Shown piece after piece: positions 7,865 to 26,035 of a DNA stretch of 64,000 nucleotides (position 1 is its first letter; each line of letters opens with the position of its first letter). Below the pieces are notes generated by a model. That model worked only from the letters and a program-made list of their open reading frames with translations, was not told the DNA's origin and did not search any database. This DNA is from Nostoc sp. B(2019) (lineage in GTDB: Bacteria; Cyanobacteriota; Cyanobacteriia; Cyanobacteriales; Nostocaceae): assembly GCF_010091925.1 (NCBI RefSeq), contig NZ_WVID01000029.1:1-64000 (forward strand), written 5' to 3'. A program made the position numbers and the translations under genes.

Positions 7865-7868
7865 ATTG

Positions 7869-8643: not shown

Positions 8644-8815
8644 AAGTTTCTTTTGAGTGACATCATAAATTTTACCCTTGGTAATCCACCTACAAAACAA
8701 TTAGCTGTGCCACGCCACTACAACTAACTATTGTATTTGTTATTTAAAAAGTCTATAAGTAATAGAGTCTAAAATATTGTATAATTTTGTCAGGTGTTAT
8801 ATAAGTTTATTACCT

Positions 8816-10516
8816 ATGGATCGAATTACAGTTGGCTTATTAAATACTTTCAGAAAACAACAGTCTTTTCCAGAAGATTTAAGAGAATCAGACCTTTTTG
8901 AACATTTTGTTAATTATTACGTGATTTCCAAAGAATATAATTATCAATTTGGACTCGAAGATGTTCATGTCGGAGGCAGTGGTGATAAAGCTTTAGATGG
9001 CATTGCAATCATTGTTAATGGAAGTTTAATTAACTCAAAAGAAGAAGTGGAAGATTTGCAAAAGAAAAATAAATATTTAGATGTTGAATTTATATTAATT
9101 CAATCCAAAACTAGTAGTAATTTTGATGCAGGTGAAATTGCTAAGTTTTTATTAGGATCTACAGATTTCTTTAATGAGGAATCTGAGTTACCAGCCAATG
9201 CTCAGATAAGAGAAAAATCTCAATTAATGGGATTGATATATGAAAGAAGTAGTCTATTCAAAAATAGGAAGCCCTTATGTAAATTATACTATGTTACAAC
9301 TGGCAAGTGGCTTGATGATAAACATTTAAAGGAAACTATTGAGAGTTTGAGAAAAAGACTTGATGATATGGAGATTTTTGAAAGGGTTACATTTAATCCT
9401 ATTGATGCCAATGGCATTCAGAATTTATATAGATTAGCAAATAACAAAATATCAAGACAAATTAAGTTTGAAAGACGCGCTACTATTCCTAAAATAGAAG
9501 ATATCAACCAAGCATATATTGCAATTTTACCAGCAAGCGAATATTTGAAATTAATTACTGATGATGATGATAATTTAATTAGAGGACTATTTTATGATAA
9601 TGTAAGAGGCTTTCAAGGTGAAAATGATGTAAACCAAGAAATAGAAGCAACTATAAAGTCTGATGAGCGTCAGTTTTTTGTATTATATAATAATGGTATA
9701 ACTATTGTTGCTGAATATGTTGATGTTATTGGAGACTTAATTACTATTAAAGATTATCAAATTGTTAATGGATGCCAAACCAGTTATATCTTATATAATA
9801 GCCGAGAATCAATAGATGATTCTTTATGTATACCAATTAAAGTAATTGCTTTAGATCGAGATAGTAAACTAAAAAATAACATCATTAAAGCTAACAATAG
9901 ACAAACACCTGTTAAATTAGAGGAACTTGAAGCATTAACTGATTTTCAAAAAAAATTAGAGGAATATTATAATTCTATGCCAGAGGATAAACGACTTTAC
10001 TACGAAAGAAGACCAAGGCAATTTAATGGAATAGATGAAATTGAAAAAATAAGAATAGTAGATATACGATCTCAAATGAGATGCTTTGCATCTATGTTTT
10101 TAGACCAAGCTCAAAATGCAGGTAGATACCATGCAAGATTGCAAGAAGAAACCAAAGAAAAAATATTTTTACCTTCTCATCAGCCAATAGGATATTACGT
10201 TAGTGCCTATGCAAAATTTTGTTTAGATGCTCTATTTAGAAAAAGACTAATAGATCCTAAATATAGTCCATTTAAATACTACATACTTAATATTTTAAGA
10301 ATGCAAGTTTCAGGGAAAACTATGCCTGACATAACATCTAATAAGTTTATTAAATATTGTGAAACACTAGAACACGCATTATGGAACGATAACAAGTGTA
10401 AAGATGTATTATTAGATACTATTAATATTATTGATAAAGTTGTTAATGGAAACTATGATCGTGCAGTAGCAAAAACTGTAGGATTTTCAAATGCTATCGA
10501 TAATTGCTTGAAGTAA
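8816..10516 (+). CDS. AIPR family (abortive infection phage resistance) protein
   Basis: 566 residues from the ATG at 8816; an in-frame TTG at 8777 would add 13 residues with no support. The central and C-terminal parts match the AIPR family: GLFYDNVRGFQG, ERQFFVLYNNGITIVAE, IKDYQIVNGCQTSYILY and IIKANNRQTPVKLEELEAL. The N-terminal region has a nuclease-like pattern (GGSGDKALDGIAI with a later ILIQSKTS, that is D...QxK), a plausible PD-(D/E)xK-type site. The family name comes from proteins that stop phage growth by abortive infection. The gene is far more AT rich than its neighbours, which suggests transfer. It stands alone, divergent from the PIN toxin-antitoxin pair. Confidence 0.85.
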   Translation: MDRITVGLLNTFRKQQSFPEDLRESDLFEHFVNYYVISKEYNYQFGLEDVHVGGSGDKALDGIAIIVNGSLINSKEEVEDLQKKNKYLDVEFILIQSKTSSNFDAGEIAKFLLGSTDFFNEESELPANAQIREKSQLMGLIYERSSLFKNRKPLCKLYYVTTGKWLDDKHLKETIESLRKRLDDMEIFERVTFNPIDANGIQNLYRLANNKISRQIKFERRATIPKIEDINQAYIAILPASEYLKLITDDDDNLIRGLFYDNVRGFQGENDVNQEIEATIKSDERQFFVLYNNGITIVAEYVDVIGDLITIKDYQIVNGCQTSYILYNSRESIDDSLCIPIKVIALDRDSKLKNNIIKANNRQTPVKLEELEALTDFQKKLEEYYNSMPEDKRLYYERRPRQFNGIDEIEKIRIVDIRSQMRCFASMFLDQAQNAGRYHARLQEETKEKIFLPSHQPIGYYVSAYAKFCLDALFRKRLIDPKYSPFKYYILNILRMQVSGKTMPDITSNKFIKYCETLEHALWNDNKCKDVLLDTINIIDKVVNGNYDRAVAKTVGFSNAIDNCLK

Positions 10517-10770
10517 GCTCAATAGCAATTAAAATATAATGATATAGCGTTTCCTAATCTGCTGAGGTACGAATTTACAGGGTTTTCAGGTAAATGAAGT
10601 ACACGGATAGGGGCACAGTTGGAGTCAACTGGACATTGAAGGTAACTTGATTTCGAGAACCGTTTTCTTCCCTTTGCATCTACTGTTATTTACAGTGAAC
10701 AGTTTCATCTACAATCATGCCATCTTCTATAATTGATAAAACCTGCACAACTAATCTTAGGCATGAGACT

Positions 10771-13686
10771 GTGACCGAATCAGGAAGCTATAAAGATACT
10801 GTAAACTTACCAAAGACTAATTTTGATATGCGGGCAAACGCCATCAAGCGTGAACCCGAAATTCAGAAATTTTGGGAAGAAAATAAAATTTACGATCGCC
10901 TTTCCGAAAATAACCCCGGCGAATTATTTATACTGCACGATGGGCCTCCCTACGCTAATGGCTCACTTCATAGTGGTCATGCTTTGGGTAAAATTCTTAA
11001 AGATATTATTAATCGCTACCAACTGCTAAAAGGACGTAAGATTCGCTATGTCCCCGGTTGGGACTGTCACGGTTTGCCTATTGAATTGAAAGTTTTGCAG
11101 AACATGAAGTCAGCAGAACGGCAAAACTTAACGCCTTTACAACTGCGGCAAAAAGCTAAACAATTTGCACTAGAAGCAGTAGCAGACCAAAGCAAAAGTT
11201 GTATACGCTTTGGGATGTGGGGCGATTTTGAACACCCTTATCTGACTTTGCAGCCAGAATATGAAGCGGCGCAAATTGGCGTGTTTGGTCAGATGTTCTT
11301 AAAAGGCTATATTTATCGCGGTTTGAAACCTGTTCACTGGAGTCCTAGTTCTAAAACTGCTTTGGCTGAAGCTGAGTTGGAATATCCAGAAGGTCACACT
11401 TCCCGCAGTATCTATGCAGCTTTCCCAATTACAGGTTTGGCGGAGGCGGTTAAATCGCAGTTGGGAGAATATTTGTCGGAATTAGGTGTGGCTATTTGGA
11501 CAACTACGCCTTGGACAATTCCGGGGAATTTGGCTGTGGCGGTGAATGCAGATTTAAACTACGCGGTGGTGGAAGTCTCACGCCAAGACGCAGAGACGCA
11601 AAGTAATCTTAGCGCCTTTGCGCCTTTGCGCGAGATAAATTTCAAATATCTAATCGTTGCGGCAGATTTGGTGGAGAGTTTATCTTCTACTTTGGGAGTT
11701 GAGTTAAGTGTAAAAGCAACGTTCAAGGGGAAAGATTTAGAACGTACAACTTACCGTCATCCCCTATTTGACCGCGAAAGTCCGATTGTTGTTGGTGGTG
11801 ATTACATCACAACTGAGTCGGGTACTGGACTGGTACATACTGCACCTGGTCATGGTCAAGAAGATTACATTGTTGGTCAGCGTTATGGTTTGCCTATCCT
11901 CGCGCCAGTGGATGATAATGGCAATTTCACCCAGGAAGCGGGAGAATTTGCTGGGTTGAATGTGCTGGGTGATGGGAATCAGGCGGTAATTGATGCACTG
12001 AGTGCGGCTGGTTCGTTGTTGAAGGAGGAAGCTTACGCCCACAAATATCCCTATGACTGGCGGACGAAAAAGCCGACGATTTTCCGCGCGACTGAACAGT
12101 GGTTTGCTTCGGTAGAGGGATTTAGGGAAGAAGCGCTAAAGGCGATCGCAACTGTAAAATGGATTCCAGCCCAAGGTGAAAATCGGATCACGCCAATGGT
12201 AGCGGAACGTTCCGATTGGTGTATCTCTCGTCAACGGAGTTGGGGTGTACCCATTCCCGTTTTCTATGATGAAGAAACCGGGGAAGTACTTCTGAATGAG
12301 GAAACAATCAACTACGTCCAAGCAATTATCGCCGAAAAAGGCTCTGATGCTTGGTGGGAATTGTCGGTGGCTGAGTTGTTACCAGAATCTTACAGAAATA
12401 ATGGTCGGTCTTACCGCAGAGGTACAGACACAATGGACGTATGGTTTGATTCTGGTTCATCTTGGGCAGCAGTGACTAAGCAGCGTCCTGAATTGCACTA
12501 CCCCGCTGATTTGTATTTGGAAGGTTCCGACCAACATCGTGGTTGGTTCCAATCAAGTTTGCTTACTAGTGTAGCGGTTAATGGTATTGCGCCTTACAAA
12601 ACTGTGCTAACTCACGGCTTTGTTTTAGATGAACAAGGGCGGAAAATGAGCAAGTCAGAAGGAAATGTGCTTGACCCAAATACAATCATCGAAGGCGGAA
12701 AAAATAAAAAAGAAGAACCGCCTTATGGTGCAGACGTATTGCGGCTGTGGGTGTCGTCGGTAGATTATTCCTCTGATGTCCGCATTGGTAAAAGCATCAT
12801 TAGACAACTCAATGATGTTAGAGGTAAGATTCGCAATACAGCGCGGTTCCTGTTGGGTAGCTTGCATGATTTCGACCCCGAAAAAGATGCAGTACCTTTA
12901 GAGGATTTGCCAGAACTTGACCGCTATATGCTGCATCGCATCACCGAGGTGTTTAATGAAGTCACGGAAGCCTTTGACAGTTTCCAATTCTTCCGCTTCT
13001 TCCAAACAGTGCAGAATTTCTGCGTCGTGGATTTATCCAACTTCTATTTAGATGTTGCCAAAGATAGGCTGTACATCAGCGCCCCCGATGCTTTTCGCCG
13101 TCGCAGTTGTCAAACAGTGCTGAAGATTGCTTTAGAGAATTTAGCACGAGCGATCGCCCCAGTGCTATGCCACACAGCCGAAGATATCTGGCAATATCTC
13201 CCCTACAAAACACCTTACAAATCGGTGTTTGAAGCCGGTTGGGTGCAGGTAGAAGAAAAATGGCGTAATCCAGAATTAGCAGAATTTTGGGAAACGCTGC
13301 GACAACTCCGCACTGATATTAATAAGGTGTTAGAACAAGCCAGGGTAGAAAAAATGATTGGTTCTTCTCTGGAAGCAAAAGCTTTGATTTACATACCTCA
13401 CAGACAGTTAAGCAATGCTATCAAAGCCTTTAACCCTGTTAACGGTAACGGTATTGACGAACTGCGGTATTTATTGCTGACTTCCCAGGTGGAATTATTA
13501 GATTCTCCTGATGCAATGAAAGCATTAAAATATACAGCACAGACGCAAGACTGGGTAATTGGGGTAGTGAATGCAGAAGGGGAGAAGTGCGATCGCTGCT
13601 GGAATTACTCCACCCATGTGGGAGAATCAGCAGAGCATCCCCTAATTTGCGAACGTTGCGTTGCAGCCTTAGCCGGAGAGTTCTAA
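10771..13686 (+). CDS. ileS: Isoleucyl-tRNA synthetase
   Basis: Charges tRNA-Ile. From the GTG at 10771 the protein is 971 residues; an ATG at 10717 in the same frame would add 18 residues that do not look conserved, whereas the sequence after the GTG (TESGSYKDTVNLPKTNFDMR) begins like the family. The HIGH motif is HSGH at residues 67-70 and KMSKS lies near residue 625. The editing domain includes TTPWTIPGNLAVAV and ESGTGLVHTAPGHG. The C-terminal zinc site is CDRCW plus CERC. Residues 271-288 of the editing domain are encoded by an intergenic-type repeat (separate entry). This is an essential gene inside an otherwise accessory stretch. Confidence 0.96.
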   Translation: MTESGSYKDTVNLPKTNFDMRANAIKREPEIQKFWEENKIYDRLSENNPGELFILHDGPPYANGSLHSGHALGKILKDIINRYQLLKGRKIRYVPGWDCHGLPIELKVLQNMKSAERQNLTPLQLRQKAKQFALEAVADQSKSCIRFGMWGDFEHPYLTLQPEYEAAQIGVFGQMFLKGYIYRGLKPVHWSPSSKTALAEAELEYPEGHTSRSIYAAFPITGLAEAVKSQLGEYLSELGVAIWTTTPWTIPGNLAVAVNADLNYAVVEVSRQDAETQSNLSAFAPLREINFKYLIVAADLVESLSSTLGVELSVKATFKGKDLERTTYRHPLFDRESPIVVGGDYITTESGTGLVHTAPGHGQEDYIVGQRYGLPILAPVDDNGNFTQEAGEFAGLNVLGDGNQAVIDALSAAGSLLKEEAYAHKYPYDWRTKKPTIFRATEQWFASVEGFREEALKAIATVKWIPAQGENRITPMVAERSDWCISRQRSWGVPIPVFYDEETGEVLLNEETINYVQAIIAEKGSDAWWELSVAELLPESYRNNGRSYRRGTDTMDVWFDSGSSWAAVTKQRPELHYPADLYLEGSDQHRGWFQSSLLTSVAVNGIAPYKTVLTHGFVLDEQGRKMSKSEGNVLDPNTIIEGGKNKKEEPPYGADVLRLWVSSVDYSSDVRIGKSIIRQLNDVRGKIRNTARFLLGSLHDFDPEKDAVPLEDLPELDRYMLHRITEVFNEVTEAFDSFQFFRFFQTVQNFCVVDLSNFYLDVAKDRLYISAPDAFRRRSCQTVLKIALENLARAIAPVLCHTAEDIWQYLPYKTPYKSVFEAGWVQVEEKWRNPELAEFWETLRQLRTDINKVLEQARVEKMIGSSLEAKALIYIPHRQLSNAIKAFNPVNGNGIDELRYLLLTSQVELLDSPDAMKALKYTAQTQDWVIGVVNAEGEKCDRCWNYSTHVGESAEHPLICERCVAALAGEF
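11581..11634 (+). repeat. Intergenic-type repeat translated in frame inside ileS
   Basis: Bases 11581-11634 read CGCAGAGACGCAAAG ... GCGCCTTTGCGCCTTTGCGC, the same vocabulary as the noncoding repeats near 18187-18216 and 5159-5185. They make an imperfect inverted repeat and add exactly 18 codons (RQDAETQSNLSAFAPLRE) without a stop or frameshift. Composition and repetition differ from the rest of the gene. Insertion is inferred from the repeat match; an alignment was not possible here. Confidence 0.65.
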
Positions 13687-13698
13687 AAAAGGAAACTT

Positions 13699-13757
13699 CT
13701 CTGTGTCTTTGTGTCTCTGTGGTTACAAAATTGCTTTTTACCACAAAGACACAAATA
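13699..13757. repeat. Palindromic repeat CTTTGTGTCTT...AAGACACAAAG, copy 1; likely terminator
   Basis: Arms TCTTTGTGTCTCTGTGGTT and ACCACAAAGACACAAA face each other between the convergent ends of ileS and parA. Related copies lie at 28352-28418 and 56752-56854. Position and fold suggest a bidirectional terminator derived from a mobile palindrome. Confidence 0.65.
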
Positions 13758-13791
13758 CACTAAAGTGAAAATTTCAAACCCTAGCCACTAT

Positions 13792-14676
13792 TTACAACTT
13801 TTGCAACAACTCTTGAGTTAATTGAAAGAAAGCTTTAGAGCCAGCTGACTGGGGAGCATTGATAACAACCGGCGTAAAACTATCAACAGCCTTAGCAACA
13901 TTAACATCGACTGGTATTTGAGTTTTACAAATTTTTTCTACGCCAAAATCTTCAACAACGCGGTGCATCACTTGTTTATAGTATCTGCCAGTGAGCAAGT
14001 TAGCACTAGACATACTAAATACAATTCCCAGCATTTTTATATTTATCTTAGTTTCATTTCCGTGACTGTCTTTTAATTGAGCAATCCGTCTTTCCAGTAA
14101 TTGAATACCCACCACAGATAAGGGTTCTGGCTTAGCAGGAAGTATATAGAAATCACTACCAGCTAAAGCGCTACGAGTCAATAGATTATAACCAGGGGCA
14201 CAATCCAAGAGGATAAAATCATACTCTTGGCGAACAGATTTTAAGATGTTATTAATCAAAACTCTTTCAAAGCGATTCCAAATCGTTTCAAAATCCTGTT
14301 CGCCCAAAGCAACTGCTTGTTGATGCAGCATTTCTGAGACAACAAATTCATCATATAAGTCTATATCTCCCGGCAATAAATCTAGTCCAGGTAGATTACA
14401 AACTTGAGATTGAATTATCTCTTGAATCGTCAGTTTTGCGTTTGGTTCTGGATTGACAACTTCATCTATTAAATATCTAAATGTCAGTCTTTGTTTGCGA
14501 CGCTTGGCAAAGTCCAAAGGCGACATCAGGCTGAGTGTGGCACTAATTTGGCTATCTAAATCAAGCACAAGCACCCGTTTGCCATGATTTTTAGCTAAAC
14601 AAGTAGCTAAGTTGACGGTGAGGGTGGTTTTCCCTACACCACCTTTCATATTTGCAGTAGCAATTACATATCCCAT
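13792..14676 (-). CDS. ParA family ATPase
   Basis: 294 residues. A deviant Walker A motif (KGGVGKTT, residues about 12-19), VLDLDSQ for the A' motif and FILLDCAPG for Walker B define a ParA/MinD-type ATPase. Such proteins position plasmids, chromosomes or protein cargo on the nucleoid or act as regulators. A proline-free insert with RKQRLTFRYLIDEVVNPEP sits after A'. No parB is adjacent on this strand. The gene is divergent from the nuclease-ParA operon, sharing a 510-base control region. It could be part of the same system or a chromosomal orphan; I cannot decide. ATG start at 14676. Confidence 0.85.
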   Translation of the reverse strand: MGYVIATANMKGGVGKTTLTVNLATCLAKNHGKRVLVLDLDSQISATLSLMSPLDFAKRRKQRLTFRYLIDEVVNPEPNAKLTIQEIIQSQVCNLPGLDLLPGDIDLYDEFVVSEMLHQQAVALGEQDFETIWNRFERVLINNILKSVRQEYDFILLDCAPGYNLLTRSALAGSDFYILPAKPEPLSVVGIQLLERRIAQLKDSHGNETKINIKMLGIVFSMSSANLLTGRYYKQVMHRVVEDFGVEKICKTQIPVDVNVAKAVDSFTPVVINAPQSAGSKAFFQLTQELLQKL

Positions 14677-15019
14677 TGGTTAATTCCTCTGATGACGCCT
14701 TCTCATCTAGGTAGCGTACACCCCTGCTGAACAATTGAAACTTCCGTTAAATTTAATATTTTCGGTGACTCAAAAGAGTCGTTTCAGTCATGTTTCCTCG
14801 ATTGAGGCAGTCAGATTATATAGCAATCCGACTTGAATTGTTAAATTCTGGCAAAGAAAAACACTCGTTACTCTGAAGCATACGTCTACACTTAATCTAA
14901 CCTGTACGCTTAAGTTGGGAACTTATATTAAAGCTCATAGGTCGTTGGTAGAGACACACAGATGATGTGTGCTCTTACAACATTTTGCTTTTACTTAGCC
15001 TAATAATTTTGAACATGAC

Positions 15020-15059
15020 TAGCTCTCAGAAAGAGCTAATTTCCTAGTGGAAACACTAG
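15020..15059 (+). promoter_or_regulatory. Two consecutive small stem-loops upstream of the nuclease-ParA operon
   Basis: Stem 1: 7-bp perfect arms 15020-15026 and 15032-15038 with a 5-base loop. Stem 2: 6-bp perfect arms 15044-15049 and 15054-15059 closing a GAAA (GNRA-type) tetraloop. They are 5 bases apart and lie 127 bases before the start codon, so could act in the 5' leader or as protein sites. Role is inferred from position only. Confidence 0.4.
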
Positions 15060-15145
15060 TTATATTATGATTTTTTACATTTTTTTAAGTATATTTTATT
15101 ACTCGAAATAATTAACGCCATGCCATAATTTAAAGAGAAAATCCG

Positions 15146-15160
15146 ATTATTGACAATAAT
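15146..15160 (+). promoter_or_regulatory. Operator-like palindrome ATTATTG-A-CAATAAT
   Basis: Perfect 7-bp arms around a single A, 26 bases before the TTG start and just ahead of the AGAGGT ribosome-binding site. Its placement suits an autoregulatory operator, perhaps for the winged-helix protein encoded third in the operon. This is inference. Confidence 0.35.
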
Positions 15161-15186
15161 TGTAATTTTTTAGAGGTAGAAAAAGA

Positions 15187-16569
15187 TTGCCTTTTAATCC
15201 TGAGCTATGTCGTAACGAAAGCGAAGTTGAAAGCAAACTCATAGTGCAATATTTGCTACCACAGCTAGGGTATACTCCTGATACTTGGCATCAAGAAGTT
15301 GCCCTTGGTAGCATCCGCTTAGACTTCTTAGCATTTGCCGCACAAGTAATTCCCTTGGTTTTAGATGCCAACTCGCCGCTGAGTGTCGTCATGGAGGCAA
15401 AGCACCCTAAACAAAACTTAAATAATCACGTCCTCCGACTCAGGCATTATTTAACAAGCTTGAATGTGCGGTATGGATTGCTAACTAATGGAAAAGAGAT
15501 CAGAATTTATGAGAAATTTCAAACTGATGTTCGGTTAGTGTTTCAATGCTCTGGCAAGGATATTGAGACGAAGATAGATGCAATTGCAGGCTTCATTGCT
15601 AGAGAAAGTTTAAGAGATAGACAGGTTATAGACAAGTTAGATATTCAAGTATTTGAAGATAATTTAAATTTGGAAAATAAGAGAGTGGATTCAATGAAGA
15701 CAATTGCAATTTATCATCATAAAGGCGGCGTTGGTAAAACTACAGTTGCTATTAACTTAGCTGCTGCATTGAGTAAGAAAGGGAAAAAAGTTCTTTTAAT
15801 TGATATAGATGCTCAGGCAAATACAACCTTTGCTACAGGCTTAATTAAGTTTCAATTTGAAGAGGATGATGATTTAAAAGACCGTAATGTTTCTCACTTG
15901 CTAGAAAAGACAGACTTTAACTTTATTCCAGATATTGTTCGTAAATCTAAGTTTTTTAATAATCCAGAAGTAGATATTATACCTTCACATATTACCTTAA
16001 TTTCAAAGCAAAACAATCTTGTCCAATATGGAGCTAGTCGAAATAGGCTAGCTAAAAAATTAGAGAAGGTAAAGAATGAATATGATATTGTAATAATTGA
16101 TACTCCTCCGTCATTAGACTTGTATGCACAAGCTGCCTTAACTGCTGCTGATTACTTAATAATTCCTTCAGACTTAAAGCCATTTTCAAATCAAGGTTTG
16201 CCCAGTGTTCAAAGCTTTATTAAACAAGAAATCAATGAAAATAAAGAAGGTCTAGGAAAGCCACCTATTATTATTATGGGTGTTCTTCCATCTAAAATTT
16301 CTACCAATGCTCAGTATCTCAAATATACCTATGCAAAACATAAAAGTGTAATTACTGATCGTTACAATATGCCAATTATGGATAGTATGATCTCAGAAAG
16401 AACAGCTTTATCAGCTTGTGTTAATAGAACTATATCTGTGGGAGATATGGAGATTCCAGATCCTAAATCTATTCTTGACTTTGCTATTAATGAACCTTCA
16501 GCTAATCAAGCTGCTGCTGAGTTTGAGTTTCTGGCTATGGAAGTTTTGACAAAAATGGAGATGAAATAA
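15187..16569 (+). CDS. Restriction-type nuclease domain fused to a ParA ATPase
   Basis: 460 residues in two domains. Residues 1-140 match the N-terminal nuclease fold of type I restriction HsdR proteins: ESEVESKLIVQYLLPQLGY, then RLDFLAF with D46, then VVMEAKHPKQ with E70 and K72, giving the D-(x23)-ExK of a PD-(D/E)xK active site, and YGLLTNGKEIRIYE. Residues 170-460 are a complete ParA ATPase: KGGVGKTT at 179-186, LLIDIDAQ, and IVIIDTPPS. The start is TTG at 15187, fixed by AGAGGT 9 bases upstream and by domain coverage, as no ATG precedes the nuclease motifs. It overlaps the next gene by one base (TAATG), so translation is coupled. This fusion is unusual; it may be a defence or plasmid-interference protein. 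The function is not established. Confidence 0.85.
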   Translation: MPFNPELCRNESEVESKLIVQYLLPQLGYTPDTWHQEVALGSIRLDFLAFAAQVIPLVLDANSPLSVVMEAKHPKQNLNNHVLRLRHYLTSLNVRYGLLTNGKEIRIYEKFQTDVRLVFQCSGKDIETKIDAIAGFIARESLRDRQVIDKLDIQVFEDNLNLENKRVDSMKTIAIYHHKGGVGKTTVAINLAAALSKKGKKVLLIDIDAQANTTFATGLIKFQFEEDDDLKDRNVSHLLEKTDFNFIPDIVRKSKFFNNPEVDIIPSHITLISKQNNLVQYGASRNRLAKKLEKVKNEYDIVIIDTPPSLDLYAQAALTAADYLIIPSDLKPFSNQGLPSVQSFIKQEINENKEGLGKPPIIIMGVLPSKISTNAQYLKYTYAKHKSVITDRYNMPIMDSMISERTALSACVNRTISVGDMEIPDPKSILDFAINEPSANQAAAEFEFLAMEVLTKMEMK

Positions 16570-17321
16570 TGACTGAGTTTTTTATGTTAGATGTTTCAAG
16601 CATTACATCTAGTGTTTCTCGTTCAAACTTTCAAGAAGCTGACTTAGAAAATCTTGCGGACATGATATTAGAGTCTGGAGGAATTCTCAAACCTCTAGTT
16701 TTAAAAAAAATTGGATTTGAAAAATATGAGGTAATTGATGGACACTTTGAATACTATGCATCTGTAAGAGCTAGAGAAAAAAATCCTAGTGAAGGTGAAA
16801 TGGTCAATTCTTTGATTATCTCATCTGAGAAAGAAGAAGCAGTATTAAAGCAAGCTGCCGTTCTTAGAAGCGCAGAGCCTTTTGACAAGTCATCAACAAC
16901 TCTAATAAAAACTAATCATTCAGAATCAAATTCCACAAATAGCGATTTTAGTTTGTTGGAAAAGCAAATTAATAATTTAAGGTTAGAATTAGCACAAGAA
17001 AGACAAGAAAGACAGAAACTATACGATACTATCAAGCTGATTGAAAGTCAGATACCCAAACAAGTTACACCATTAGATGTATTTAATAGTCTAAGTTTAG
17101 TAGAACTGACTTTTAGATTAAGAACTGCTGGATTTACTGATAAAAAAGCTGTTCAGGTTGCTGAAAGTGTAGACAAAGAACGTACTAAGAAAAGGTTTGA
17201 ATCTCTGAAAGATGTACTAGCAAGAGTAAAGGTTGCAACTGGCAAAAAACAGGTTAAAGGTATAAGTGGCGAGAAAATGGTAGACATTGTTGATAGCTGG
17301 TCACGCATCTTGTTTATTTAA
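16569..17321 (+). CDS. ParB-N/Srx-like protein, partner of the nuclease-ParA fusion
   Basis: 250 residues. The first 80 residues look like a ParB/sulfiredoxin-fold domain: LDVSSITSSVSRSNFQEADL, LADMILESGGILKPLVLKK, then YEVIDGHFEYYASVRARE, which aligns with the V-x-DG-x-x-R-x-x-A segment of ParB. The usual CTP-binding GERR is replaced by DGHFE, so CTP binding is doubtful. Residues about 115-170 are polar and coiled-coil-like (LEKQINNLRLELAQERQERQ). The C-terminal 80 residues are helical and basic. There is no clear HTH. Its start codon shares a base with the upstream stop. It is probably the cargo- or DNA-side partner of the ATPase (inference). Confidence 0.7.
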   Translation: MTEFFMLDVSSITSSVSRSNFQEADLENLADMILESGGILKPLVLKKIGFEKYEVIDGHFEYYASVRAREKNPSEGEMVNSLIISSEKEEAVLKQAAVLRSAEPFDKSSTTLIKTNHSESNSTNSDFSLLEKQINNLRLELAQERQERQKLYDTIKLIESQIPKQVTPLDVFNSLSLVELTFRLRTAGFTDKKAVQVAESVDKERTKKRFESLKDVLARVKVATGKKQVKGISGEKMVDIVDSWSRILFI

Positions 17322-17364
17322 ACTTTACTTATAGTTAATTTGCAATAATAATTCGGGGATCAAT

Positions 17365-18120
17365 ATGGATGATCTGGAATCCAAAATACTTGAGATATTG
17401 AAGCGTGGCACTCCCCTAAGAGCAGCAAAAATTGCTGATATGCTGGGAGTTGAAAGACGAGAAGTAAACCATTACCTGTATTCTTCATTGAAGAATATGG
17501 TTGTCCAAGATAGTGAATATAAATGGTCATTTAAGACAAATCAAATAGGTAATAATCAGCGTATCCCAACTCAACCTCGAAAATCTCAAAATCAATCATC
17601 AATGCCTGTACAGCAAGATACCTCGTATAGTTTTACTAAAAAGGAGATTAAACAAGATACTCCAAATCAACCGCCAATTTCTCCAACTCCATCATCACAA
17701 CCAGCCAAGTATGAGAAACTAGAAAGATTTTCTCAAAAACATTTTGAGCCAAACTCTCCAACTCCATCCTCACAGCCTGTAAAGCAAACTAATCCGTATG
17801 AAGTTGTTAAGACAGAACTTGCTCAACTATCTTCAGAACAAAAGGTGAAAGTTTTAGAAAATGCTTTTAGGCAAGATAGATTTTCAGAACTAGAAGACGA
17901 TCAGATAAATGCTCTCCAATCAATCTTGGAAGCGGCTAAGCGGGAAGTAAATATAACCAATACTGCATATACACAAGGGAAACTAAGCTCTTGGAAGGCT
18001 AATCGTTTAGCGATCGCAGTCGTATCCATTACCTTAGCTTTTGGTACATTCTTTGTGATCAGTCAACTTAGATCCAGTTCAACTTACCAACCTACCCCAA
18101 CTATCCCACAAAATAGGTAG
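17365..18120 (+). CDS. Winged-helix protein with C-terminal membrane anchor
   Basis: 251 residues. Residues 1-55 form a Z-alpha-like winged helix: LESKILEILKRGTPLRAAKI, MLGVERREVNHYLYSSLK and an aromatic end (YKWSF). A long Gln/Pro/Ser-rich linker (60-145) follows, with a near-duplicate phrase SPTPSSQPAK / SPTPSSQPVK. Next is a helical segment (TELAQLSSEQKVKVLENAF) and one transmembrane helix at about 212-232 (AIAVVSITLAFGTFFVISQL) with a short tail. It lies 43 bases after the ParB-like gene on the same strand, with GGGGA before the ATG, so likely one operon. Similar winged helices occur in biological-conflict proteins. A membrane-tethered sensor or effector is possible. Function unknown. Confidence 0.65.
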   Translation: MDDLESKILEILKRGTPLRAAKIADMLGVERREVNHYLYSSLKNMVVQDSEYKWSFKTNQIGNNQRIPTQPRKSQNQSSMPVQQDTSYSFTKKEIKQDTPNQPPISPTPSSQPAKYEKLERFSQKHFEPNSPTPSSQPVKQTNPYEVVKTELAQLSSEQKVKVLENAFRQDRFSELEDDQINALQSILEAAKREVNITNTAYTQGKLSSWKANRLAIAVVSITLAFGTFFVISQLRSSSTYQPTPTIPQNR

Positions 18121-18186
18121 ATTCTCCAACCCTTAACTGAGTATTTGTATTACATAATTGTGGGGCATTGCTTAGCGTTTACAGGC

Positions 18187-18216
18187 TTTCTTTGCGCCTC
18201 TGCGCCTCTGCGTGAG
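18187..18216. repeat. Short tandem GCGCCTCT repeat
   Basis: TTTGCGCCTCTGCGCCTCTGCG carries the unit GCGCCTCT twice in tandem. It is the same vocabulary as the translated repeat inside ileS. It lies between the winged-helix gene and the glycosyltransferase. Confidence 0.6.
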
Positions 18217-18277
18217 GAATTCTCATATATACGTCTACGCATTCCACATAACTTGTAATCATCGGAGACATACTTAA

Positions 18278-19510
18278 GTGACGATTTCCCCGATTCGCAC
18301 TTTATTTATCACAAAAGAGGTTCCTTATCCACCTGTGGGCGGGGTAAGTTTACGTACCTGGCAAAACATCAATATTATGATGAAGTTTGGCCCTGTTGGT
18401 ATTTTTTCAGCCTCCAACTGGACTCCTAAAAGCACATCCTTACCGGGGGTTACACTATGGAAGCATTCCAACTTTGCCACACATCGGTCAAACTGGGAAA
18501 ACTTAGAAAGTCGGTTGTGGTGGCTACATCCCCGCAGACATCCAGATGCAGATTGGGCTTATACAAAAACTGCTGCTCAAGAATTAGACGAAACCCTGAC
18601 CAAATTTCAGCCTGATGTTGTAGTTCTTGTGGAGGTGTGGCTATACCCTTACTTGAGTGTGGTCAAGAAACATAAATGTCGCATTATCTTCGATAACCAT
18701 AACGTGGAAGCATCTCTATGGCAGCAGAGATACCATGCAGTTCAGGGTATAAAGTCAAAGTTAAAAGCCAAGATTCAGCTAGACCATCTCAAGTCAATTG
18801 AGAGCAACTTTACTAAGCAAGTTAGCCAAGTATGGGTATGCAGCCAAGATGATGTGAGCTTGATAAACGAGTTTTACGGACAAGTATCGCCCACTTACGT
18901 TGTACCTAATGGTATCAATGTAGCGCACTATGACTGTGTGCGTTCCAGTGAATACAACCCGAAGACTGGATTGGAGAATACCAGCCGGAATGTTCTTTTT
19001 CTTGGTCAACTTTCATACTCACCCAATACAGTGGCGGCTGAGTTATTAATTAACCAAATCTACCCCCAACTGCGAAAGCTTTACCCAGATAGCCGTTTGC
19101 TGCTAGTGGGGCGTAGTCCGGCTCAATTTATGCTGGATGCTGCTAAGCGATCGCCTGGAATTATCGTTACTGGTAGCGTACCAGATGTTCGACCCTATTT
19201 GGCTGCTGCCAGCGTGATGGTTGTACCATTACTTCAAGGTGGAGGTACGCGCCTGAAAATCGTAGAAGCCTTTGCTGCTGGTTGTCCTGTTGTTAGTACA
19301 GCTAAGGGTGCTGAGGGAATCAATGCTAGAGATGGGGAACACCTGCTGATTAGAGAGGTGGAAGAGTTAGTTGCAGGAGTGTCCCAAATCTGGTCAGACC
19401 CTTCTCTAGGAGAGAAACTAGCTCGTTCTGCTTATGAATTAGTACAAGCAGAATACTCCTGGGAGGCGGTTAGTTGCAAGGTGGAAAAGGCTATCCACAA
19501 ACTGTTTTGA
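18278..19510 (+). CDS. Glycosyltransferase family 4
   Basis: 410 residues from a GTG start. The N-terminal domain opens FITKEVPYPPVGGVSLRTWQ, a typical GT4 donor-side loop. The C-terminal Rossmann-like domain has NVLFLGQLSYSPN, RLLLVGRSP, VTGSVPDVRPYLAAASVMVVPLLQGGG and KIVEAFAAGCPVVSTAKGAEGI, the E-x7-E region that binds the nucleotide sugar. No membrane helix is seen, so it is likely cytosolic or peripheral. It is convergent with the methyltransferase gene and related in plan to the GT4 at 23834-25060, which shares the opening STFPYPPTRGG type. It probably acts in polysaccharide or glycoconjugate synthesis; sugar unknown. Confidence 0.88.
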   Translation: MTISPIRTLFITKEVPYPPVGGVSLRTWQNINIMMKFGPVGIFSASNWTPKSTSLPGVTLWKHSNFATHRSNWENLESRLWWLHPRRHPDADWAYTKTAAQELDETLTKFQPDVVVLVEVWLYPYLSVVKKHKCRIIFDNHNVEASLWQQRYHAVQGIKSKLKAKIQLDHLKSIESNFTKQVSQVWVCSQDDVSLINEFYGQVSPTYVVPNGINVAHYDCVRSSEYNPKTGLENTSRNVLFLGQLSYSPNTVAAELLINQIYPQLRKLYPDSRLLLVGRSPAQFMLDAAKRSPGIIVTGSVPDVRPYLAAASVMVVPLLQGGGTRLKIVEAFAAGCPVVSTAKGAEGINARDGEHLLIREVEELVAGVSQIWSDPSLGEKLARSAYELVQAEYSWEAVSCKVEKAIHKLF

Positions 19511-19525
19511 AGAAGTTATTTAAAA

Positions 19526-20347
19526 TTAGATTGTTTTTTCTAGCACAATGCACTGTGTAAGAACGTTATCAACGACTAAAAATTCATCTAAACGCTGACG
19601 AATATTTTCAGGTTCAAACTCGGAATAGCCGTACAATTCTTCAGGATTACCTATTTTTAGTTTTAATCCTGAGTGTTCAATTAGGGAACTAATTGAGATA
19701 TTAGAACCATATTTATTAGAAGGTTTATTGGTAAATGGATAACAATCTAAAAACAAATCTATTGTTGCTATAAAACAGCCACCAGGTTTCATCAGGCGTT
19801 CAATTTCTTTTGCCAATGATGGTAATTCTTCTGGTGGAATATGTTCAATTGCAGAGATAGAGAAAATGCGATCATAATAATTACTCTTCAAATTGGCGTT
19901 TTGCAAGAAATCTTGAATAAATTTAACTTTACCACCAAAAGCATTATTCAATTGATGAAACTGCTCAATAGTAAATATCCAATCAACTTTTTTGCTAGGA
20001 TTAACAAGAGGATCAACGGAGGTAATATCCAGACCACATTGAGCTAATACAAATTGAAAACCAGAAGCTCCAGTTCCAACTTCGACTACACGCATACCCG
20101 CTTCTAACGGTGTGGCGAAAAAACACCAGGGATATTCAAAGATGCGTGTAAGGCTATTGATTTGAAAACCGAAAGGCCCAATCTGTCTAATTAACTCACT
20201 AGGTAAGTTATAGCGATTACGCCAAGCAAAATTGTTTCCAGTAATTTTGGAATTGGTGTATTGATACCACCATGAAGCTCCCACAGGTGCTTTGTGCTTT
20301 TGGTTCCAGATAAAAAACTTAGAAGGTATAATCTTAGGTGCTAGCAT
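19526..20347 (-). CDS. SAM-dependent methyltransferase, class I
   Basis: 273 residues. The SAM-binding motif I is MRVVEVGTGASGFQF. The acidic residue after strand 2 is in DITSVDPL, and post-I motifs are RIFSISAIEHIPPEEL and MKPGGCFIATIDLFL. The extra N-terminal 95 residues, rich in Trp and aromatic residues (WNQKHKAPVGASWWYQYTNS), may recognise the acceptor. No neighbour names the substrate, but the gene lies among glycosyltransferases, so modifying a sugar or a glycan end is plausible. ATG at 20347 is the first good start. Confidence 0.8.
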   Translation of the reverse strand: MLAPKIIPSKFFIWNQKHKAPVGASWWYQYTNSKITGNNFAWRNRYNLPSELIRQIGPFGFQINSLTRIFEYPWCFFATPLEAGMRVVEVGTGASGFQFVLAQCGLDITSVDPLVNPSKKVDWIFTIEQFHQLNNAFGGKVKFIQDFLQNANLKSNYYDRIFSISAIEHIPPEELPSLAKEIERLMKPGGCFIATIDLFLDCYPFTNKPSNKYGSNISISSLIEHSGLKLKIGNPEELYGYSEFEPENIRQRLDEFLVVDNVLTQCIVLEKTI

Positions 20348-20438
20348 AATTCAGTAATTTACTTTTAAATTTAAGAGTAAGTAAACTAGATTTTTTAATC
20401 AACCAGATACTTCTCAGATTTTCTTTTATTAGATAATA

Positions 20439-21386
20439 TTAACCTCTTGCTTGTCGCAGTACGTTAAACGCTTTACTCCGTAACCCAACTGGTAATAGCG
20501 ATAAACCTAAACCAGTCCACGCTTTAGTAGTTGAAAAAGACTGTCCTGCCAAAATCAATTCTCTGCCTCTTGGTGTTTCACCCTTTTCGACTAAACGCAA
20601 ACCCAATAATAATTGTGTTTCAGCAAGACGATTTTTTCTGATTATCTCCAGTTTTTCTGAATCAAACTTATAATTTTCTAAATATTGGATTTTATCGAAT
20701 AAATAAGGAATAGCTCGATTAATACCTTGCTGTTCTGCATGATAGCGATATTCCATCAATAACTCTGGTAAATAATAACCCTTTTTCCCAGCTAAAGCTA
20801 GCCGCACAAACAAATCATTATCCTCACAATTTTGCAGATTAGGCAACATAAATCCTAATTCTAGTAAGGCTTGACGGCGAAATAATGTTGCTCCAATTTG
20901 GAAGCTTTGATGAATAAACACAATTTCCAGCAAGTTATCTACTACACCTTTTGGTAAATTCGTTCTACCCCAGCGACGAGAATTTTCTTGAGTTTTCTCT
21001 TTATCGCGGATATTATTAATATCGATTATCCAATGGTCTGTGCCAACAAAATCAATAGTAGAATCTTGTTCAAAAATTGCGGTAGTACGTGCTAAAAAGT
21101 CAGATGTTAGCCTATCATCGTCGTCAAACTTCATAAAATATTTGCCGCTTGCAGCATCAAAGCCAGAGCGCATATTATTGCTTTTACCAATATTTTGCGG
21201 ATGACGGATGTATTTAATACGGTTATCTGTATACTGTGACATTAATTCAGGTGTATCATCACCAGAACCGTCATCACAGACAATTAATTCAAAGTCTTGC
21301 TCGGACTGGTGAAGTACACTGTCAATGGCATAAGGTAGGAGATAGGCACGATTAAAAGTAGGAATGCAAACACTAATTTTAGGCAT
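20439..21386 (-). CDS. Glycosyltransferase family 2
   Basis: 315 residues with a GT-A fold. The opening ISVCIPTFNRAYLLPYAIDS and ELIVCDDGSGDDTPELM form the nucleotide-binding part. The metal-binding DxD is in YFMKFDDDDRL, and CEDNDLFVRLALAGKKGYY is the acceptor-side segment with the catalytic acid. No transmembrane helices are seen; the C-terminal 60 residues are basic and may associate with the membrane. It precedes or follows other sugar-transfer genes on the same strand with gaps of about 85-90 bases. The sugar and acceptor cannot be read. Confidence 0.88.
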   Translation of the reverse strand: MPKISVCIPTFNRAYLLPYAIDSVLHQSEQDFELIVCDDGSGDDTPELMSQYTDNRIKYIRHPQNIGKSNNMRSGFDAASGKYFMKFDDDDRLTSDFLARTTAIFEQDSTIDFVGTDHWIIDINNIRDKEKTQENSRRWGRTNLPKGVVDNLLEIVFIHQSFQIGATLFRRQALLELGFMLPNLQNCEDNDLFVRLALAGKKGYYLPELLMEYRYHAEQQGINRAIPYLFDKIQYLENYKFDSEKLEIIRKNRLAETQLLLGLRLVEKGETPRGRELILAGQSFSTTKAWTGLGLSLLPVGLRSKAFNVLRQARG

Positions 21387-21470
21387 ATTTTATTTTATAT
21401 AGAAACTACTGTAATAGGATCAACTACAAATTAAATGTATGGTGATACTTGACCACCATACAGCTAAAAA

Positions 21471-22490
21471 TTAAGCGATAGTTCTTTGAATTTTCTTGAT
21501 AGTTTTTTTGATAAATCGATTGGTTTTTGATGCCATGCTTGGTGGTTTTAGCTGTTGTGGTCTTTGTTCTGGTTGTTTGAGAAAACGATAATATAAAAAC
21601 TCATCTCTATAAAGAATATTGACATCTTCTCCTTGAGATAAACGGGCAAAATCACTAGAGGAATAGCTCATGTAGTGAATGCGATGAATGGGTTTTAATC
21701 CATCTTGATTGTAAAGAACATTATCAATATTTACGAAGGGATCTGCATTAGCGCAGTTGCCGGTTCTATCTTGACCATTAGGGCTGAGCGTGAAGTTAAA
21801 TAGTGGGCGATCGCACCGCAAGGTCATATAATTAAACAAAAAAGCATCATCCCACCATCCATGTCCATTGATCCATTCAATTTCTCTGTTGTCAATTAAT
21901 TGCTGCTTCATCACTTTAATTTCTTGAGCAGTAAATAAGCCTCGCTTAGACCCAAAAAAACTAGAACAATGCAGCTTAGGACGGATATCAGTTTCCGTAT
22001 ATAGTCCAGTTTTTTCTATAACTGAAATATCCAAAGCAGCCACATTTCTATTCTTAAGATGTTCCCAATCATCAAAAACAAAGTCATACTTCTCTAGCTT
22101 TTCAATTACATCGGTGGCTGGCTTCATCGCCAAGCTATCACCGTCATAAAATACAAATTTATCAAAAACACCCTCAAAAGCAACAAACTTTCTTTGTAAA
22201 TGACTTTTGTACCAACTAGGACGTGATGCTTTTGTCTCTCTTTCTCTGGGATGAGCCGCCCAAACTTGATGAGCAAATTCTTCCCAGCATTGAATCACAT
22301 CCCAATTCTCAAATAACATTACGTTCTTTCGAGAATTAACTTCTTGCTTAACTCGGTCTAGTCGTTCATCATAAGGAATAATACAAACTGGGATATCTGC
22401 ACTAACATTCATCTCAATGCTATTTAGCAAAGCTACTAGTTGGTCATAGACTACATCATTCGCAAGGGTGTAAATACCGAAAGATTCCAT
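21471..22490 (-). CDS. Nucleotide-diphospho-sugar transferase-like protein
   Basis: 339 residues. The N-terminus (FGIYTLANDVVYDQLVALLN) and PVCIIPYDERLDRVKQE look like a GT-A/GT8-type transferase. A metal site is FVFYDGDSLAMKP (DxD). HCSSFFGSKRGLF and GWWDDAFLFNYM follow. I recall this as a cyanobacterial family named after Nostoc punctiforme loci, but I cannot confirm it. The C-terminus is basic. It probably acts on a surface glycan with the neighbouring genes. ATG at 22490. Confidence 0.65.
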   Translation of the reverse strand: MESFGIYTLANDVVYDQLVALLNSIEMNVSADIPVCIIPYDERLDRVKQEVNSRKNVMLFENWDVIQCWEEFAHQVWAAHPRERETKASRPSWYKSHLQRKFVAFEGVFDKFVFYDGDSLAMKPATDVIEKLEKYDFVFDDWEHLKNRNVAALDISVIEKTGLYTETDIRPKLHCSSFFGSKRGLFTAQEIKVMKQQLIDNREIEWINGHGWWDDAFLFNYMTLRCDRPLFNFTLSPNGQDRTGNCANADPFVNIDNVLYNQDGLKPIHRIHYMSYSSSDFARLSQGEDVNILYRDEFLYYRFLKQPEQRPQQLKPPSMASKTNRFIKKTIKKIQRTIA

Positions 22491-22797
22491 TTGACAAAAT
22501 CCTTTTTTTCCAGGTGATAAATAGTTTTAGCAATTATATAAACAGCTTGGGGATGAGATAATTAAATATGTATGCTTGTTACAGTGCTAGGCTAGCTAGC
22601 TTGAAGCATAAAATCCACCCCACAAATAAGTCTACAACCAAAAACATGATGTATTTTGGTTGCTCTATTTGCTAGGATTCCCAGATATTCAATTGAATAA
22701 ACATCTTAATAGTAGCTTTTTCGTTACCCTATCCGTCAAGGTAAGGGGATTCGCAAGATTCCCGACTGCTTTAAAGTAGCCGGGAATCTTAAATTGA
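22491..22797. other. Intergenic stretch with a terminator-like hairpin
   Basis: 307 bases. The only structure is the inverted repeat AAGATTCCCG ... CGGGAATCTT at 22755-22790. The part nearest 22490 would hold the promoter of the transferase gene; no clear motif is visible. Confidence 0.5.
22755..22790 (-). terminator. Hairpin after the DxD transferase gene; repeat family AAGATTCCCG
   Basis: 10-bp perfect outer arms at 22755-22764 and 22781-22790, with partly paired inner bases. It lies 7 bases beyond the stop codon of the leftward gene ending at 22798. A relative lies at 49386-49418, so the same sequence is a dispersed repeat that can serve as a terminator. Confidence 0.6.
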
Positions 22798-23595
22798 TTA
22801 CGCAAATTGTGAGATATTATTAATTTTATACAGGCTAAACTCTTCATGAGTTGATTGTGCCATCCATCTATAATCTAATAAAGCTTTCATTCTTAAAAGC
22901 CTTGATTTTAGAGGTAGTGCTTTATTTTTGTTTGCAACTCCAAAATAAACATTTTCACCATTTTTGATATAAATAGCACCTGGAAAAGGTAGAGGTTCAA
23001 GCGGTGTTCCTTTTTTTGCCAGAGTATTTGTTATATCACGATGACGATAGGAATTAAATATATATTGTGTATATTCTTTATCATATACAGCATTGACAAT
23101 TTTAGGTACATTATATAAATCATATCTAATTATATTGCTTGTGCCGCAGTATTGATCAAAACCTTTTCTCATAATACGTATGAGACTACTGCCTTCACTA
23201 TAAACGTAGCCTTTTTTGATAAACCAACCATTAGCTTGAGGATTGCTATTAACAAACTCTGCTAAATATTTGCTAACGCAGTCATCAGCATCAACACACA
23301 TAACGTGTGATGGGTTGAGTTGCCGCGCATATATTAATCCTGTGGTAAATTTGGACAGTTTATCTAACTGTTTGCTTTTCCAGTCTGTCCCTTGTAATTT
23401 AAAATTATGCTGAAGATATATAATGTGAGGATGGCTAAATTCTATATCAGGCTTTTCATTGCAAACAACAATCACTCTAAAGTCGTTTACAGTCTGGTTG
23501 CAGATGGATTTTAGGCATCTTTCAAATAACTTAGACACGCTTTCCCATGATTTAGAAATATATTTGCTTTTAACTGGGACAATAAAAACAAGCAT
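22798..23595 (-). CDS. Glycosyltransferase-like protein (GT-A fold)
   Basis: From the ATG at 23595 the product has 265 residues; an upstream ATG at 23658 gives a longer form. The internal start is preferred because AGGAAG lies upstream and the chain then opens MLVFIVPVKSK, as GT-A proteins do. The segment FRVIVVCNEKPDIEF and VMCVDADDCVSKYLAEFV (DxDD) support a nucleotide-sugar site. CGTSNIIRYDLYNVPKIV follows. Family placement beyond GT-A is not possible by eye. It is divergent from the GT4 gene on its right and likely part of the glycan cluster. Confidence 0.65.
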   Translation of the reverse strand: MLVFIVPVKSKYISKSWESVSKLFERCLKSICNQTVNDFRVIVVCNEKPDIEFSHPHIIYLQHNFKLQGTDWKSKQLDKLSKFTTGLIYARQLNPSHVMCVDADDCVSKYLAEFVNSNPQANGWFIKKGYVYSEGSSLIRIMRKGFDQYCGTSNIIRYDLYNVPKIVNAVYDKEYTQYIFNSYRHRDITNTLAKKGTPLEPLPFPGAIYIKNGENVYFGVANKNKALPLKSRLLRMKALLDYRWMAQSTHEEFSLYKINNISQFA

Positions 23596-23833
23596 CTTAA
23601 TCTTCCTATCTGGTCTGGCTATGGTTACATTTTGCCCTAGGCTTCTATGTAAAAACAACAGTTAATGGGGAACTATACAGTAAATTTACTATTGTTGTCA
23701 GTCAATAGGTAGCTAGCTTTTTGGCTGCTTTAATTTATGAAAATTTTACGAATAATATATAAGGGATATTTGTGATGACATCTAGCCTGAAATGAAGTCA
23801 TGGTGTATGTATCACTTACCGAATATCACTTGT

Positions 23834-25060: not shown

Positions 25061-25074
25061 TTGATCTGTAATCT

Positions 25075-25107
25075 ATGTAGAGACGTTGCAATGCAACGTC
25101 TCTACAT
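25075..25107. terminator. Bidirectional terminator, 16-bp perfect arms
   Basis: ATGTAGAGACGTTGCA at 25075-25090 and its complement at 25092-25107 with a one-base spacer. It lies between convergent genes. The half-unit is repeated once more (GCAATGCAACGTCTAC) to 25123, so the element is also a dispersed repeat. Confidence 0.7.
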
Positions 25108-25120
25108 AGCAATGCAACGT

Positions 25121-25990: not shown

Positions 25991-26035
25991 AGCGATTTAG
26001 GAATTCAAAAGCTTAATGTTAAAGTTCCAGGGCTT

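Follow-up and report, generated by a model that had tools for sequence, protein, structure and literature searches.

A nuclease-ParA fusion and its ParB_N-like partner form a widespread two-gene cassette that alternates with an FtsK-exonuclease module in Nostocaceae

The known role of ParA and ParB proteins is the movement of DNA and cargo, and with ATP ParA forms dimers that coat DNA irrespective of its sequence. The stretch described here (the window) comprises 64,000 nucleotides of contig NZ_WVID01000029.1 from Nostoc sp. B(2019), whose genome assembly amounts to 7.4 Mb in 109 contigs. It carries a gene that joins a putative PD-(D/E)xK nuclease domain of the HsdR_N type to a ParA ATPase, followed by a gene for a ParB_N-like partner, or adaptor; the two genes are referred to below as the cassette. 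This two-gene unit is real and widespread and, so far as the open-access literature reaches, undescribed, no account of an HsdR_N-ParA fusion having been found there. If true, a ParA that bears a seemingly active nuclease and is encoded in a widespread chromosomal cassette would link partition motors to DNA destruction.

Among the closest described systems are the ParABS systems (Soj/Spo0J and plasmid ParAB), with which the cassette shares a deviant-Walker-A ParA and a coupled downstream gene for a protein of the ParB_N fold. Unlike them, its ParA is fused to a nuclease, and its adaptor carries a helix-hairpin-helix, Rho_N or other tail where ParB has the helix-turn-helix that reads parS. GERR, the CTP-binding box II, occurs in none of 82 partners (five of these from the second family described below), and the LG[RK]GL motif is missing from the first 40 residues of all 82, so that the partner is not a canonical ParB. 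LG-R/K-GL is described as the ParA-binding motif at the N-terminus of ParB (PMC12704722). The same survey reports that ParB-CTPase-fold proteins outside parAB join the fold to varied lineage-specific domains, as the partner does too; the available portion mentions no HsdR_N-ParA partner, and in it a DUF3850 fusion alone consistently adjoins parA (PMC12704722).

Restriction systems offer further likenesses. With HsdR of type I systems the fusion shares an N-terminal HsdR_N-type PD-(D/E)xK domain and differs in its motor, which is ParA and not a superfamily 2 (SF2) helicase: no SF2 domain scores over the Pfam cut-off in the fusion, and a ResIII match (0.0039) overlaps the ParA P-loop. Neither hsdM nor hsdS was recognised by eye among the open reading frames (ORFs) at 8-26 kb of the window, nor in the recurrent neighbour clusters scanned. 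The likeness to McrBC lies in a long form accompanied by a short nucleoside triphosphatase form from an in-frame internal start, shown for mcrB and predicted for the cassette, and in a swapped chromosomal locus with a remnant. The immigration control region of E. coli is such a swapped restriction locus, and McrB-S is an internal-start isoform that interferes with McrB-L (PMC3874153). Unlike McrBC, the cassette has no McrB or McrC domain, and ParA takes the place of the AAA+ GTPase. In-frame internal initiation also yields a defence subunit in the case of Cas11b (PMC11899642). SspFGH, a restriction module of three genes that acts against phages, includes an SspH resembling FtsK and an SspF with a Walker A motif (PMC8092258). 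The cassette has no PADLOC match to SspF, SspG or SspH; it is the rival module, which occupies the cassette's place in other genomes, that also has three genes and an FtsK-type motor nearest SspH. ParA-like and FtsK domains, predicted to be inactive, serve as effector domains in other conflict systems (PMC7159879).

The genes and the parts of their products are as follows.
15187-16569, + strand: ORF of the nuclease-ParA fusion, 460 residues, TTG start
15187-15633, + strand: PD-(D/E)xK (HsdR_N-like) nuclease domain, residues 1-149, with D46, E70 and K72 (HSDR_N_2, motif, model topology)
15634-15693, + strand: variable linker with an internal Shine-Dalgarno-like stretch at its end, 15675-15690 (anti-Shine-Dalgarno duplex energy)
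15694-16566, + strand: ParA ATPase part, residues 170-460 (AAA_31, Met170, Foldseek)
16569-17321, + strand: ORF of the partner (adaptor), 250 residues
16569-16883, + strand: ParB_N/sulfiredoxin-like domain, residues 1-105, its start overlapping the fusion stop (Pfam, Foldseek)
16941-17051, + strand: long helix, residues 125-161 (AlphaFold2 model)
17070-17318, + strand: C-terminal tail, exchangeable and of a DNA-binding type: helix-hairpin-helix-like in the window, in relatives also Rho_N/SAP or a third type
17365-18120, + strand: ORF of an optional third gene, 251 residues, with an N-terminal winged-helix-like domain and a C-terminal membrane helix at about residues 215-233

A reading made earlier from the letters alone (the sequence-only reading) had described this layout of three ORFs, which is borne out: stop and start overlap in TAATG at 16567-16571 exactly as described, and the gap before the third gene is exactly 43 bases. 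D46, E70 and K72 of the fusion and its KGGVGKTT at 179-186 are present as claimed there. Pfam AAA_31 (ParA-type) covers residues 170-351 at 1.3e-55, and the ParA part resembles Soj/ParA structures with a Foldseek E of 2.5e-17. The HSDR_N_2 match of the N-terminal domain falls under the Pfam cut-off when the window fusion is scanned alone (9.7e-5) and just above it, at 25.5 bits, when the protein is scanned with its in-frame neighbours; at E<=1e-3 the profile matches 32 of 33 homologues, the best at 2.3e-8, and it scores above the cut-off in a second fusion family (26.9 versus 25 bits). The AlphaFold2 model of the fusion has a predicted local distance difference test score of 84. Its N-terminal topology (H10-25, E33-39, E42-49, E65-70, H77-91 and E95-99, numbered without the start codon) fits the alpha-beta-beta-beta-alpha-beta core of PD-(D/E)xK enzymes, with D46 on strand 2, E70 on strand 3 and K72 just past strand 3, and the structure prediction proposed earlier as a check thus gives the expected strand and helix order. 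No solved nuclease was retrieved for this domain: a profile search gave one designed protein (E 4e-4) and one chance match only, and the 50 Foldseek matches listed for the whole fusion model are ParA/MinD-type folds only. The nuclease assignment therefore rests on sequence profiles, motif and topology. Among 63 dereplicated homologues, D46, E70 and K72 are invariant (63/63) and the ParA motifs (deviant Walker A, A' and B) are intact (63/63), which agrees with the earlier description of a nuclease domain joined to a complete ParA; both look active.

The ParB/Srx-like fold claimed for the partner stands as well. Pfam ParB_N matches the window protein at 1.8e-6, over the cut-off, and 46 of 49 partner homologues at E<=1e-3; the partner is conserved, and its gene is coupled to that of the fusion. 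Foldseek returns Spo0J, Noc, ParB, KorB and sulfiredoxin with probabilities up to 1.0 (best E 4e-3, none below 1e-3). The long helix that follows is likely to be a coiled coil, judging from the model. Beyond it the tail is helix-hairpin-helix-like in 62 of 77 partners, Rho_N/SAP in nine, of a third type in four and unassigned in two; among five partners from family 2, three have Rho_N, one the third type and one HHH_3. Tail kind changes at least six times on a weakly resolved tree of the N-terminal domain, whose supported branches force three to four changes per kind. Divergence over 29 loci is 0.18 for the nuclease, 0.36 for the ParA part and 0.54 for the partner. Because the tail is exchanged and the partner diverges fastest, the tail is likely to be the specificity part. 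The third tail type, about 80 residues long in the partners at loci L015, L073 and L137 and common to families 1 and 2, has no Pfam match in L015 and L137.

The partner directly follows the fusion in 105 of 106 full-length fusion loci, the sole miss (L058) being at a contig edge; these loci overlap between collections and thus are not 106 genomes, and 63 remain at 90% dereplication. The two genes most commonly overlap by one or four bases (57/81 pairs). Recurrence in many genera and several phyla makes the two-gene unit more than chance. The expectation that the neighbours would recur with the fusion therefore holds for the partner and fails for the winged-helix gene, which is optional. In 217 Nostocaceae genomes, for which all counts given here rest on E-value cut-offs, the fusion family of the window (family 1) is found in 104, family 2 in 19 and both in one (Fisher p 4e-5); 121 genomes matched, the 104 including fragments and split copies, with eight ParA-only and nine family-2-only genomes set aside. 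Identity between family 2 and the window protein is 26-28% over the N-terminal domain and about 40% over ParA. Outside Nostocaceae, 47 of 364 cyanobacterial genomes (an even class draw) carry family 1, with only matches that contain the N-terminal domain at E<=1e-60 being counted. Beyond cyanobacteria, the best 80 of 116 matches include Desulfobacteraceae, Thiotrichaceae, Riflebacteria and Bacteroidales, and one Chloroflexaceae metagenome-assembled genome with the gene in a broken frame. There is mostly one fusion per genome. Nuclease-less ParA and ParB_N-like pairs, close relatives of the cassette, occur at L118 (14639-16299), L120-L123 and L125-L127; the genome with the L118 pair also has a fusion cassette about 9 kb away. 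At L128, L129, L130 and L131 (genomes G077, G033, G113 and G156) the fusion gene is broken into two or more frames, and at L128 an intact rival gene adjoins the split fusion.

The fusion gene is predicted to encode a second product. Residue 170 is Met in 63 of 63 sequences despite the variable linker before it, and a Met is present there in all 86 distinct contexts, one of which has an additional Met nearer the motif (KGGVGKTT in the window). Pairing with the anti-Shine-Dalgarno sequence before the internal ATG at 15694 is worth -6.5 kcal/mol; over the 63 homologues the median is -5.8 kcal/mol at Met170 versus -0.2 at 341 other in-frame Met codons and -7.0 at the gene's own start. When the seven codons before the internal ATG were recoded with each gene's own synonymous codons in 200 trials, the observed mean was reached in none of them, whether for 16 genes of family 1 (70% dereplication), 14 genes (62%) or 18 genes of family 2, in which the ATG stands 8 (not 9) residues before the motif in 18/18. 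AGG is used for 74% of the 43 Arg codons just before Met170 and for 15% of the 1206 at other positions of these genes. Of ten nuclease-less relatives, eight begin exactly at the Met170 equivalent and two carry it behind a short extension. The invariant Met170 and the selected Shine-Dalgarno sequence together predict that a ParA without nuclease is made from the ATG at 15694. Counting against this prediction, the internal Shine-Dalgarno reaches -4 kcal/mol in 44 of the 63 sequences and misses it in 19, 11 of which are near zero, including all five Pseudanabaena rows; at 70% dereplication 8 of 16 reach it.

The site of the cassette in the window is delimited by two further features.
13792-14676, - strand: lone ParA, the site marker, outside the cassette
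20439-22490, - strand: glycosyltransferase genes, on the far side of the site, outside the cassette

The lone ParA has no partner and is near-universal in Nostocaceae, with a match in 213 of the 217 genomes at E<=1e-80 and at least 83% identity among the matches listed. It lies within 6 kb of the cassette in 24 of 81 loci (the window, all lineages and contig-edge loci included), and a glycosyltransferase of three clusters within 10 kb in 45 of 81; many Nostoc loci have a different upstream side and the same glycosyltransferases downstream. The region around the lone ParA was compared in 20 genomes that have no fusion, and in 18 of them an opposite-strand three-gene module takes the place of the cassette (L169-L178, L180-L185, L187 and L188; the module also occurs at L036, L118, L128, L189-L195 and others). 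Of the other two, L186 retains remnants of this rival module and L179 has nothing recognisable. The first rival gene encodes about 860 residues with a 3'-5' exonuclease, a PD-(D/E)xK domain and an FtsK motor, the second an ATPase of about 690 residues with sub-threshold AAA_16 and NACHT matches, and the third about 280 residues of no family. In PADLOC the FtsK part is closest to SspH and mad8, its best match being SspH at 233 bits over profile positions 1382-1739 of 1766 only, and the second and third genes have no match. The rival module resembles a restriction-like module in its own right.

The two modules avoid each other. Rival gene 1 is present in 104 of the 217 Nostocaceae (E<=1e-100), and the genomes divide into 102 with the fusion only, 84 with the rival only, 20 with both (58 expected) and 11 with neither (49 expected), for a Fisher value of 3.6e-28 that is uncorrected for kinship. 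At least four of the 11 genomes with neither are under 90% complete, and 10 of the 20 with both are imperfect, eight having a fragment or an FtsK-less rival only and two a broken fusion. Avoidance is also seen within one genus group, g37 (of 53 genomes, three have both, 43 the fusion alone, five the rival alone and two neither; p 4e-4), and outside Nostocaceae, where no genome among 364 has both (5.3 expected, p 0.002 with the cut-offs as used) and 88 have either (47 fusions and 41 rivals). A tree of the lone ParA served as the kinship correction; its 60 rows are the distinct lone-ParA sequences from the loci collected, 20 of them chosen for lacking the fusion, and rows with both modules are scored as fusion. 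At least 15 state changes are needed (14 to 15 are forced by supported branches), and the labels show no clustering (17 observed, shuffled mean 17.0). Among 15 independent pairs differing in the fusion, the rival differs in the opposite sense in about 13 and in the same sense in 0.2 (median p 2.4e-4). The repeated alternation is a natural experiment in which two unrelated machines seemingly fill one role.

Traces of replacement are found next to the fusions. At locus L067 (the same as L197) the cassette stands inside the rival gene, between the nuclease part (residues 1-488) and an FtsK remnant (residues 784-858). FtsK remnants adjoin fusions at L014 (Brasilonema), L029 (Trichormus), L099, L199, L202 and L205, FtsK-less rivals lie beside fusions at L196, L203 and L155, and L100 has an exonuclease-part match (71%) downstream that may instead be a paralogue. 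After matching by contig coordinates, truncated or remnant rivals adjoin the fusion in 11 distinct genomes, and intact rivals do so in about nine. The raw scan found remnants in 20 of 171 loci and a full rival in 12, but the 171 are redundant, include nuclease-less relatives and often consist of stretches of about 4.4 kb, and the 'remnant' at L115, L143, L148 and L154 owes its truncation to the end of the stretch. At L196, L197, L203 and L155 (G060, G061, G066 and G065) the rival is cut to exonuclease and PD-(D/E)xK in a frame of about 490 residues; both companion rival genes are retained where the stretch covers them (L196, L197 and L203), and the FtsK-less rival and the fusion possibly form a functional hybrid.

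In six of the eight closest lone-ParA pairs (0.7-1.4% apart) the fusions are 24-39% apart, for example 39% both in Fischerella (L042 versus L076) and in Calothrix (L067 versus L196). Mantel correlations are high between fusion and partner (r 0.79), which thus move as a unit; with the lone ParA they are not significant for the partner (0.08, p 0.13), weak for the fusion (0.23) and strong for the rival (0.68, 22 loci). The near-identical lone ParAs with divergent fusions and the Mantel pattern together indicate that cassette alleles are exchanged at the site. In all, the cassette often gives way to divergent alleles, to family 2 or to the rival module. The rival seems, from these sequence comparisons, to be the older resident there.

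The best reading of the cassette is that it may be a chromosomal restriction-like immune module against incoming DNA, because turnover is fast, a conserved effector goes with a diverging recognition part, and the alternation is with an SspH-like module; we regard the chances of this as evenly balanced. The sequence-only reading had suggested plasmid or phage interference, and this idea gains indirect support from the alternation, since the motor of the FtsK-nuclease module is nearest SspH. A fuller version, which we put forward tentatively, is a DNA-interference machine in which the ParA Brownian-ratchet ATPase moves the nuclease, the nuclease-less ParA tunes its pairing and the adaptor with its swappable tail picks the DNA, and which repeatedly replaces an SspH-like FtsK-nuclease module of the same role at a cyanobacterial 'immigration control' locus. 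ATP-driven ParA dimers of the fusion would coat DNA, and a dimer of two long chains would pair two nuclease domains and allow a double-strand cut. Short ParA chains would dilute such dimers and hold activity down, much as McrB-S modulates McrB-L. The adaptor, by way of its tail, would choose the DNA or DNA structure for ParA loading or release, so that cutting would fall on foreign DNA and leave the chromosome intact. A direct test is possible in genetically tractable cyanobacteria.

Several observations weigh against an immune role. One or other module is carried by 206 of the 217 Nostocaceae, which is unusually constant for a defence system. PADLOC 2023 gives the fusion only a generic ParA match (PDC-M28B, 6e-11) with weaker mad8 and Cas4 matches, and gives the partner none. 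Plasmid, phage and viral collections hold no full fusion and thus no sign of mobile-element carriage; a plasmid or phage origin was rejected, as a tblastn search with the fusion matched 23 of 72,556 plasmid records and 93 of 50,697 phage records, none over as much as 80% of the query, and the two matches in IMG/VR were to the ParA part. The expected location near known defence genes did not materialise: the six non-cyanobacterial flanks, inspected by eye (two of them short or one-sided, and some small genes at L075 left unidentified), consist mostly of housekeeping genes, with no defence island evident. No gene marking self DNA was recognised by eye among the ORFs at 8-26 kb of the window, which were not scanned family by family. 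Two of the eight closest lone-ParA pairs have fusions only 3-4% apart. In seven g37 genomes (L189-L195) neither site marker lies within the 16-18 kb examined around the rival, so these cases of alternation are not swaps at the site in question.

The constancy of one or other module in 206 of 217 Nostocaceae makes a maintenance role the main rival explanation. The cassette would then be a housekeeping DNA-maintenance module, interchangeable with the FtsK-exonuclease-PD-(D/E)xK module by non-orthologous displacement and engaged, for example, in processing DNA ends or unresolved chromosome copies in polyploid filaments. Both modules pair a nuclease with a DNA-associated ATPase, the cassette is mostly single-copy with flanks that are often housekeeping, and avoidance within g37 holds though the rival sits at other places there. 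The turnover speaks against it, with about 15 switches and unclustered labels on the 60-row tree, as do the divergent alleles beside near-identical lone ParAs, the broken copies, the 11 genomes with neither module and the presence of either in only 88 of 364 cyanobacteria outside Nostocaceae; we consider a maintenance role rather unlikely.

The position of the cassette inside the rival gene at L067, the truncated or remnant rivals in 11 genomes and the differing alleles in near-identical hosts would also be expected of a selfish, homing-like cassette that inserts in or beside the rival FtsK-nuclease gene and destroys it without benefit to the host. We judge this improbable: inspection by eye revealed no recombinase close to the cassette in the window, long repeats are absent from the three intergenic stretches tested, intact rivals adjoin fusions in about nine genomes, the nuclease is strongly conserved, and the remnants end at varied points of the rival gene, which points to no single homing site. 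A ParA positioning system of the McdAB or PomZ kind, with the HsdR_N domain merely binding DNA or acting as a scaffold, fits the cyanobacterial McdA among the ParA fold matches, the resemblance of the adaptor to ParB-family proteins and the existence of nuclease-less ParA and adaptor pairs, but is very improbable given that D46, E70 and K72 are invariant in the most conserved part of the protein, which a scaffold would not need.

The third gene belongs to the site, not to the fusion. It is found in 36 of the 217 Nostocaceae (E<=1e-20), 29 with family 1, three with family 2 and four with neither. In three of these last four, 0.06-3.5 kb separate it from the rival module. The earlier description of the winged-helix gene as a fixed part of the unit is thus not borne out, and an obligate component is ruled out by these counts. 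As to the protein, the C-terminal hydrophobic segment claimed for it is present in all 20 copies that reach 200 residues (the window's included; some share a genome), whereas the label 'Z-alpha-like' is weakly based, the Pfam matches to z-alpha (0.007) and AsnC-type helix-turn-helix (0.0017) both being under cut-off. PADLOC gives a ZorC C-terminal match (4e-7).

An imperfect 15-nucleotide inverted repeat at 15138-15168, just 5' of the fusion start codon, is a candidate operator for autoregulation. A repeat scan for parS centromeres, in which the window alone was compared, found besides it only short, widely spaced pairs in 14650-15260 and no inverted repeats in 17280-17400 or 18100-18290, nothing convincing as a parS candidate. 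No RNA element reaches the gathering score in 7500-26000 of the window. The ORF at 19526-20347 resembles a methyltransferase of another kind than a self-DNA marker. An AIPR/AbiU-type abortive-infection gene lies at 8777-10516 (+ strand; PADLOC AbiU 442 bits, Pfam AIPR 1.7e-44); it was rejected as a neighbour of the cassette, as ileS and the lone ParA stand between. Next to it, the small opposite-strand genes at 7910-8365 and 8359-8700 (both - strand) look, by eye only, like a PIN-type toxin-antitoxin pair.

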